Below are positions 62,454 to 63,323 of a stretch of DNA of 64,000 bases, in pieces. The notes below the pieces were generated by a model. It had not been told where the DNA came from. It searched no databases and saw nothing but the letters and a program-made list of their open reading frames with translations. The position numbers were made by a program, and so were the translations under genes. Source of the stretch: Cyclobacteriaceae bacterium (GTDB lineage: Bacteria; Bacteroidota; Bacteroidia; Cytophagales; Cyclobacteriaceae). The DNA is taken from the NCBI GenBank assembly GCA_027533395.1, contig JAPZUF010000012.1, positions 62,001 through 126,000 of the forward strand. The letters are read 5' to 3'. How positions within the stretch are numbered: position 1 is the stretch's first letter; every line of letters begins with the position of its first letter.

Positions 62454-62529
<76 letters not shown>

Positions 62530-62541
62530 CATTAAAAGATT

Positions 62542-62616
62542 CGAGGTGTAGCGCAGCCCGGTTAGCGCACCACGTTAGGGACGTGGGGGTCGGATGTTCG
62601 AATCATCTCACCTCGA
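62542..62616 (+). tRNA. tRNA-Pro with AGG anticodon
   Basis: A complete cloverleaf: acceptor CGAGGTG/CACCTCG, D-stem GCGC/GCGC, anticodon stem CCACG/CGTGG with loop TTAGGGA, variable loop GGGTC, and T-stem GGATG/CATCT with one G-U pair around loop TTCGAAT. The discriminator is A. The loop places A at position 34, giving AGG where bacteria normally use GGG, TGG or CGG. Twelve bases after tRNA-Ala, so both are on one transcript. Confidence 0.9.
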
Positions 62617-62627
62617 CAATAAGAATT

Positions 62628-62807
62628 GGGGGTACGTCACGCTAGAAGCGTGATCACCTTGACAAAAAAATTGGGGGTACGTCACGCTAGAAGCGCGATC
62701 ACCTCGACAAAAAGAATTGGGGGTACGTCACGTTAGAAGCGTGATCACCTCGACAAAAAGAATTGGGGGTACGTCACGCTAGAAGCGCGATCACCTTGAC
62801 AAAAAGA
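62628..62807 (+). repeat. Four tandem hairpin repeats resembling the 3' half of tRNA-Pro
   Basis: Units begin with GGGGGT at 62628, 62673, 62719 and 62765 (periods 45, 46 and 46). Each contains a stem TCACGC/GCGTGA around loop TAGAA, followed by ATCACCTCGAC (or CACCTTGAC) and an A-rich AAGAATT joint. The 3' half of the preceding tRNA-Pro has the same order: GGGGGT at 62585, a T-arm hairpin, CACCTCGAC, then AAGAATT, 43 bases before the first unit. Units 2 and 4 have one mismatch in the stem and unit 3 has a G-U pair. The array ends directly in a terminator. Confidence 0.8.
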
Positions 62808-62833
62808 GGTTGCTATGAGCAACCTCTTTTTTT
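62801..62833 (+). terminator. Terminator of the tRNA/repeat transcript
   Basis: AGAGGTTGCT/AGCAACCTCT with a three-base loop, preceded by A5 and followed by T7: the strongest hairpin in the locus. It overlaps the end of the fourth repeat. Confidence 0.88.
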
Positions 62834-62842
62834 ATAACGGTC

Positions 62843-63097
62843 TTCTACGTTTATATTCTTGAGTTAGAGTCCAGCGGAAAGTGGTACTATGGCTTTACTG
62901 AAGACATCGTTCAACTTATTAATGACGATCAGACTAACCGCTCTACATACAATAGGTTCAAAGAACCATGGAAATGAAATTCTAAACGTGAGTTTCTTGA
63001 TAAGAGAGAAGCACTGCATTTAGAAAAACAACTCAAAAACTCACACAACAAGGAATTTATAAAGGGAAAATTTGAAGATTACTTTATTTTTCACTGA
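62843..63097 (+). pseudogene. Decayed GIY-YIG endonuclease-like gene
   Basis: One frame reads like a small GIY-YIG protein: YVYILELESSGKWYYGF (GIY and YIG boxes as YVY and YYG), STYNRFKEPWK, then after an in-frame TGA at 62975-62977 FLDKREALHLEKQL and EFIKGKFEDYF, ending at TGA 63095-63097. There is no start codon at the proper place. The Arg expected after the YIG box is lost (DIVQLI in place of a DLxRRL-type segment), and a few residues are missing at the stop. It is clearly non-functional. Intact relatives are common in Bacteroidota. Confidence 0.75.
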
Positions 63098-63323
63098 CCA
63101 CTTAAAACTCATTTTAAAAAAATTCTTTAGCGCATCCCGACAGAGTCGTGAGGGTCATCCCGACTTTTCCGAGGTCACCTCTACATTTTTTTATTTTGAT
63201 AATTTATCTCAAAGCTGAAGCAAGGTTTTTTTATTTAAAATTATTTCTAGTTAGAGATCATAGTAGAATCAGTTATAAAAACTGAATGTTTATCCTTAAC
63301 ATATCTTCAAGAAATTCTAAAGT

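Follow-up and report, generated by a model that had tools for sequence, protein, structure and literature searches.

Near one end of the stretch of DNA that we analysed (the window, 64 kb in length), an array of four short repeats lies behind a tRNA-Pro gene and ahead of a broken nuclease gene. The features of this locus, all on the plus strand, are as follows.

62456-62530, plus strand: tRNA-Ala (GGC), the upstream neighbour (ARAGORN; Rfam tRNA, 60 bits)
62542-62617, plus strand: tRNA-Pro (AGG), intact (ARAGORN; Rfam tRNA, 58.9 bits in a local run)
62628-62672, plus strand: array unit 1, GGGGGT followed by a hairpin, CACCTTGACA and a spacer (repeat searches; alone folds at -14.8 kcal/mol)
62673-62718, plus strand: array unit 2, with an A.C mismatch in the stem
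62719-62764, plus strand: array unit 3, with a G.T pair in the stem
62765-62803, plus strand: array unit 4, with an A.C mismatch in the stem, merging into the terminator
62801-62831, plus strand: terminator-like inverted repeat, a perfect 14 bp with a T run at its end (repeat search)
62843-63094, plus strand: GIY-YIG nuclease pseudogene of about 85 aa, with one in-frame stop and lacking the start codon of its relatives
63129-63189, plus strand: decayed right-hand pseudo-tRNA-Pro, consisting of the end of the D-arm, a palindrome that replaces the anticodon arm, and a degenerate 3' half

According to Tandem Repeats Finder the array spans 62608-62807 with a period of 46, 4.4 copies and 92% matches, and a repeat search of the window resolved it into four copies spaced 45, 46 and 46 nt apart. 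Each unit is 45-46 nt long and has the layout GGGGGT, hairpin, CACCTYGACA; any two units are identical at 34-36 positions over their first 37 nt. The start of the unit resembles the variable loop of the tRNA (TGGGGGT) and its end resembles the 3' acceptor strand (TCACCTCGACAA), so that the position of the T-arm is occupied by a different hairpin. Folding gives for each unit a hairpin closed by GGGGU/ACCUY. A preliminary description of this DNA had proposed that a 3' fragment of tRNA-Pro, with its T-arm exchanged for another hairpin, was amplified into four units between the tRNA and the terminator, and the analysis bears out that layout. (Note that the tRNA-Pro gene was absent from a whole-window Rfam run at gathering thresholds, yet was recovered in the local run, and that the inverted repeat is absent from the list of a simple terminator scan. 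A stretch 87% similar to this inverted repeat lies behind tRNA-Pro in G004, at G004:C3:642788-642831.)

When the hairpin of the unit (TCACG-CTAGAAG-CGTGA) was compared with the arms of tRNA-Pro, 11 of 17 positions matched the anticodon arm (chance 0.0055 with random hairpins) and 8 of 17 matched the T arm (chance 0.073). The first of these values is suggestive of derivation from the anticodon arm. The origin of the hairpin is nevertheless ambiguous on these comparisons: the T-arm may have been exchanged for another hairpin, or a copy of the anticodon arm may have taken its place.

The array was matched once in the 3.6-Mb genome, so that the unit is not a common dispersed repeat, a possibility that the preliminary description had raised against its own reading. 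We also rejected an origin of the hairpin from REP sequences, since TCACGC...GCGTGA has a single exact match in the window, in unit 1, and the genome holds one array. Among relatives, a tRNA-Pro query matched in 39 of 59 genomes. A search for pairs of tRNA-Pro 3' ends separated by 24-54 nt found none in four other genomes of the same genus (note that in the sister genome, G001, the locus is cut by contig ends, which may hide an array). Of 156 family genomes three matched the same pattern, namely that of the window, with four matches, and G029 and G091, with one match each that by eye is not tRNA-like.

These results bear on the earlier suggestion that the units form a functional RNA, made from the tRNA-Pro transcript and serving as a sponge, a decoy or a regulatory trailer. 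A 299-nt stretch that includes the tRNA and the terminator folds better than its shuffled versions (z -6.0), as do single units, with z between -2.64 and -3.80 for three of the four and -1.62 for the fourth. However, where the units differ within the stem, pairing is lost or weakened (A.C in units 2 and 4, G.T in unit 3) with no compensating change, and the similarity of the units is explained by recent duplication. Moreover, the lack of a match in the four same-genus genomes argues against a conserved RNA, and no Rfam family other than tRNA was found in the window. Given the uncompensated stem changes and an array present in no relative searched, we dropped the sponge or decoy as the leading reading and consider a functional RNA of any of these kinds improbable.

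Two features beyond those in the preliminary description, the GIY-YIG pseudogene and the pseudo-tRNA relic that adjoin the array, changed how we read it. The pseudogene (G000:C16:124843-125094) was recognized at E 4.2e-34 with one TGA, was also aligned to G001, and shares 70% identity with the intact copy in G004 (Chryseotalea sanaruensis); with this in-frame stop, the window locus is without an intact nuclease gene. The relic, whose outer limits at about 63129-63189 were set by eye, contains a match to the palindrome pattern with 1 mismatch (G000:C16:125131-125156) and aligns to the right pseudo-tRNA of G001. With up to 3 mismatches allowed, 10 of 295 family genomes contain the palindrome pattern CGCATCCCGACAGAGTCGGGAGGGTC, and none contains the reversed control. 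In G001 palindrome-bearing pseudo-tRNAs are present on both sides, split over two contigs. The left pseudo-tRNA-Pro of G001 shares its place and leader with the intact tRNA-Pro of the window and is followed, at the contig end, by the start of an intact-looking tRNA-Pro; the second contig begins inside the GIY gene and continues with the right pseudo-tRNA and a terminator. At the window locus the left pseudo-tRNA was not found and only the right relic is present. Thus, the broken nuclease gene, the decayed right pseudo-tRNA and the missing left one together argue that the window locus is a relic. The genome of the window contains two homologues of the query protein P0001, one behind tRNA-Pro(AGG) and the other behind tRNA-Pro(TGG), the latter preceded by a pseudo-tRNA with the anticodon arm TGGCGCCTGGGCGCCA; a third GIY-YIG match in this genome is weak and has a stop.

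A complete, two-ended form of such a locus is found in relatives. At a tRNA-Met locus in the same genus (L106), the left part consists of the 5' part of the tRNA joined to TCCGCCAATTGGCGGA, a short spacer, an intact tRNA-Met and a terminator, and the right part consists of a GIY-YIG gene, a tRNA part followed by the same palindrome and the 3' half, and a second terminator. A similar two-ended order is seen at L041 (Pro-AGG), L052 (Pro-TGG), L098 (Asp) and L156 (Arg). At L042, L043 and L007 the GIY gene comes before the intact tRNA and is itself preceded only by a 5' half with a palindrome. The nuclease gene can also be repeated in tandem, with four copies spaced 322 bp apart at L059 and eight spaced 359-368 bp apart in G440. 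(At the latter locus, L163 on G440:C34, the eight tandem repeats carry GIY-YIG genes and pseudo-tRNA 3' ends, and ARAGORN found no tRNA in 4.5 kb.) Among 31 hairpins chosen by eye for a check of pairing, 27 do not belong to the window array, and in 23 of these all six outer pairs are standard; the remainder come from L041 (one of its hairpins), L018, L064 and the window relic.

In one genome, G175 (L041), the sequence of the outer halves differs from that of the tRNA between them. The outer halves have 5' CGGGGTG and 3' CACCCCG, which pair with each other, and the inner, intact tRNA has CGAGGTG and CACCTCG. The outer halves thus appear to come from one older gene and the inner tRNA to be a newcomer, a picture expected if a native gene had been split when a spare copy arrived; this evidence comes from G175, and none of the remaining loci read is informative on this point. 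The terminator that follows the last pseudo-tRNA differs from that of the intact tRNA at L041, L047 (a contig that apparently continues L005), L052, L059 and L106. At L098, and at L156 as far as the contig reaches, the last pseudo-tRNA and the intact tRNA share the same terminator, and for these two loci tandem duplication therefore fits as well as insertion.

GIY-YIG genes of this kind are usually found close to tRNA genes. When flanks of up to 1.5 kb were fetched, a tRNA or tmRNA gene was present at 26 of 30 order-level loci, at 25 of 29 loci among relatives (one of them a tmRNA) and at 25 of 27 new phylum-level loci, and one lay within 3 kb at all nine loci of a fourth set, which includes loci from Omnitrophica and Abawacabacteria MAGs; these sets overlap, are mostly from Bacteroidota and contain best-scoring loci only, and the profiles were built from tRNA-linked copies, so that the counts are biased toward tRNA association. 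(Among relatives 30 loci were fetched and 29 tested for tRNA, L068 being counted in the order-level set.) With a 10% chance per locus, a generous estimate based on the presence of two tRNA sites within the 64 kb of the window, the binomial probabilities of 26/30 and 25/29 are near 1e-22 and 1e-21. When the order-level, relatives' and phylum-level sets are pooled, 10 of 86 loci have no tRNA; at L070 and L072 the tRNA is on the strand opposite to the GIY gene. Overall, 68 of 118 phylum genomes have a GIY-YIG match at E <= 1e-10. At L114 a tmRNA gene is closely followed by a GIY-YIG gene with a stop, and tmRNA may be a target of the element too. In Omnitrophica, an unclassified bacterium and Abawacabacteria, GIY-YIG relatives adjoin tRNA-Ser, tRNA-Leu and tRNA-Met, respectively (L084, L085 and L086), and at L086 a palindrome pseudo-tRNA lies behind the gene.

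Partial extra copies of a tRNA accompany these genes as well. With a required overlap of 9 nt they were present at 26 of 38 GIY loci and at 5 of 23 tRNA-Pro loci without a GIY match (Fisher 0.0004), and with 15 nt at 24 of 38 and 4 of 23, a contrast that is slightly biased by a minimum repeat length of 15 in the search of the GIY loci and 18 in that of the controls. The 38 loci are drawn from 51 tRNA-bearing loci of the order-level and relatives' sets, from which we left out seven already inspected by eye or otherwise known (L048, L050, L055, L057, L059, L064 and L068) and six that repeat earlier places (L089-L092, L095 and L117); for several loci, only repeat families able to overlap the tRNA entered the count. 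The controls are the 23 of 29 tRNA-Pro loci that have no GIY match at E <= 1e-8 nearby (L005, L006, L007, L010, L023 and L030 were left out), a threshold at which weaker GIY relatives would escape detection. (Note that 16 of the 25 tRNA-bearing phylum loci were examined for repeats and stand outside this count.)

Arm-swapped units that lack an ORF, like those of the window, also adjoin intact tRNAs at several of the GIY loci. There are two units of 82 nt at L052, three of 93 nt at L098, two of 85 nt at L156 and three pseudo-Asp units at L055, and L057 has at least two full ORF-less copies in which the D-arm is swapped. In G001 two tandem tRNA-Ala 5' units with the hairpin TCGAGAC...GTCTCGA lie ahead of an intact tRNA-Ala beside tRNA-Pro (L045). 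In the window array this pattern appears on the 3' side of the tRNA and with the T-arm position swapped. None of the other loci read has an array identical to it in length and place on the 3' side. The nearest parallel is L018 in G017, where two ORF-less units of 114 nt are altered in the T-arm region with no GIY match nearby, and L081 apparently has a single T-arm-swapped Pro 3' end.

An alternative account of the array would be a plain tandem duplication of the tRNA 3' end through slippage or unequal exchange, unrelated to any nuclease and comparable to the tyrT repeats of E. coli. The array has no ORF and occurs in no other genome searched, and 5 of the 23 control loci carry partial tRNA copies where no GIY match is near, all of which speaks for such a duplication. 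It does not account, however, for the exchanged arm, for the adjoining GIY pseudogene and palindrome pseudo-tRNA, or for the similar arm-swapped arrays beside GIY genes, and we regard it as rather unlikely, although it is the strongest of the alternatives. The preliminary description had also considered scars of repeated integration at the tRNA. As a general idea this is close to what the relatives show; a narrower version of it is that of scars left by elements with a tyrosine integrase. The 3' ends of tRNA genes are usual targets of integrases, and the array units do repeat the tRNA 3' end, but successive copies are spaced by 46 nt and have an arm exchanged, the recurrent neighbour is a GIY-YIG gene, and reading by eye of the translated ORFs (80 aa or longer) between 56 and 64 kb revealed no recognizable integrase. 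We consider integrase scars very improbable.

The proteins encoded in relatives, and that of the second copy in the genome of the window, are recognizable members of the GIY-YIG family. Four of them match PF01541 (E 5.8e-14 to 2.3e-16) and have the catalytic Tyr, Arg, His and Glu of the domain, and in nine aligned proteins Y5, Y16, G18, R26, H30 and E62 are invariant. The best PDB relatives are UPF0213 and SLX1, so that these proteins may also act on palindromes in a structure-specific way. When five proteins were compared with PHROGs, two matched (best hits a homing endonuclease at 2.1e-4 and an endonuclease family at 8.3e-5) and three did not. With P0002 alone as query, three phage records and one plasmid record were found to carry relatives, all with 31-34% identity.

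A link between the GIY-YIG fold and tRNA genes is already known in phages. The closest relative among published systems is SegB, a free-standing GIY-YIG homing endonuclease of T-even phages whose gene lies beside tRNA genes; it is reported to cut within tRNA genes and to promote, through recombination, tandem amplification of a segment with tRNA and nuclease genes, and in T6 amplification of the tRNA-segB segment requires the nuclease residues of SegB (PMC13096335). The elements described here resemble SegB in having a GIY-YIG gene beside tRNA genes. They differ in being chromosomal rather than phage-borne and in that their proteins match phage homing-endonuclease families weakly or not at all, and neither arm-swapped palindromic pseudo-tRNAs nor a split native tRNA appears in the portion of the SegB description compared. 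In the intact tRNA-Pro the SegB motif RAWTSGAAC falls within the T-loop (62596-62604, minus strand), and no occurrence is listed in the array units; its frequency in the window is at chance (7 against 6.24 expected), and we take it as only a lead. None of the open-access matches listed describes, in the portions of text available, chromosomal tRNA and GIY-YIG elements with arm-swapped pseudo-tRNAs.

Homing group I introns sit in the anticodon loops of tRNA genes, and like them the elements, as read here, would be nuclease-bearing insertions that split a tRNA gene near the anticodon; unlike them, they would need no splicing, since they bring a whole spare tRNA. The tyrT (RtT) repeats of E. coli are tandem repeats with a tRNA 3' end directly downstream of a tRNA, as in the window, but to our knowledge those repeats have neither an arm exchange nor a nuclease gene; the window array has an exchanged arm and a nuclease pseudogene beside it, and its Rfam match is to tRNA only. 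Palindromes of the REP type go with RAYT transposases, and in several relatives TCCCGA...TCGGGA palindromes are dispersed in a similar way (236 against 1 control in G038 and 61 against 2 in G214). No such excess is seen in the genome of the window (1 against 1), G001 (3 against 2), G003 (4 against 4) or G021 (2 against 4), a longer pattern found none in the genome of the window, and unlike REP sequences the palindromes of interest are located inside tRNA arms. (Of 14 genomes searched for the REP-like palindrome family of G038, some are enriched and others are not.)

Taken together, we favour the reading that the window array is a by-product, now decaying, of a small element of the homing type with tRNA genes as its targets, and give it a probability of roughly 0.55. 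In such an element the mini GIY-YIG nuclease would lead to a break in a tRNA gene, in most cases at the anticodon arm. Repair that draws on a copy with the element would then insert a palindrome, a spacer, a complete spare tRNA, a terminator, the nuclease gene and a second palindrome between the native halves, so that the palindrome ends up in both outer halves where the arm had been. Repeated breakage, and repair between short repeats, would multiply the pieces into tandem nuclease units or, where no ORF is included, into tandem arm-swapped pseudo-tRNA units such as the four in the window. The anatomy of these loci, their linkage to tRNA genes, the agreement of the outer halves in G175 and the broken state of the nuclease gene are seen directly in the sequences; cleavage, the site of the cut and homing are what we infer, and the T-arm type of array may have arisen by the same route; the observations that bear on homing are the outer halves in G175 and the presence or absence of GIY genes between species. 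As the nuclease gene is a pseudogene and the left pseudo-tRNA is absent, the array itself is probably a fossil that lacks a function of its own.

Some observations count against this reading. The window array has the T-arm position swapped, whereas the adjacent relic and the Pro-AGG elements have the anticodon arm swapped, and the partial tRNA copies at the 5 control loci are present with no GIY match nearby. The pooled loci that have no tRNA, the opposite-strand tRNAs of L070 and L072, the shared terminators of L098 and L156 and the lack of a 3'-side array of equal length at the other loci read also weigh against it. In addition, because the anticodon arm of the spare tRNA is the same as that of the presumed target, how the element would be protected from its own nuclease is unexplained. 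No clean empty site was found in the genus of G146.

In a broader form, which we hold tentatively and at a little under even odds, the elements would be widespread selfish elements of about 320-450 bp that break tRNA genes, survive by bringing a complete spare tRNA and leave a palindrome at each junction, with the window array as the wreck of one of them. Since the element carries a complete spare copy, its loss would cost the cell a tRNA. Engineered cleave-and-rescue drives disrupt an essential gene while supplying a functional copy of it, and the element would share this logic as a natural counterpart; unlike in those drives, the spare copy here apparently has the same sequence as the target arm. 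If this is correct, a common minimal mobile element resides at tRNA genes of many Bacteroidota and of a few MAGs from other phyla, and annotation would show it only as a small GIY-YIG nuclease and odd tRNA pseudogenes. Such an element would account for tandem tRNA pseudogenes at GIY loci and would provide a simple system in which a nuclease coexists with its own target.

Two further observations concern the tRNAs themselves. The tRNA-Pro that matches the gene of the window has the anticodon AGG in many relatives, with CGG, GGG and TGG versions also found; an A34 tRNA-Pro anticodon is unusual among bacteria. At L055 (2463-2739) tandem tRNA-Asp copies are spaced 101 nt apart, and three of them have a Gly (GCC) anticodon on an Asp-like body, possibly as missense tRNAs or as dead copies.
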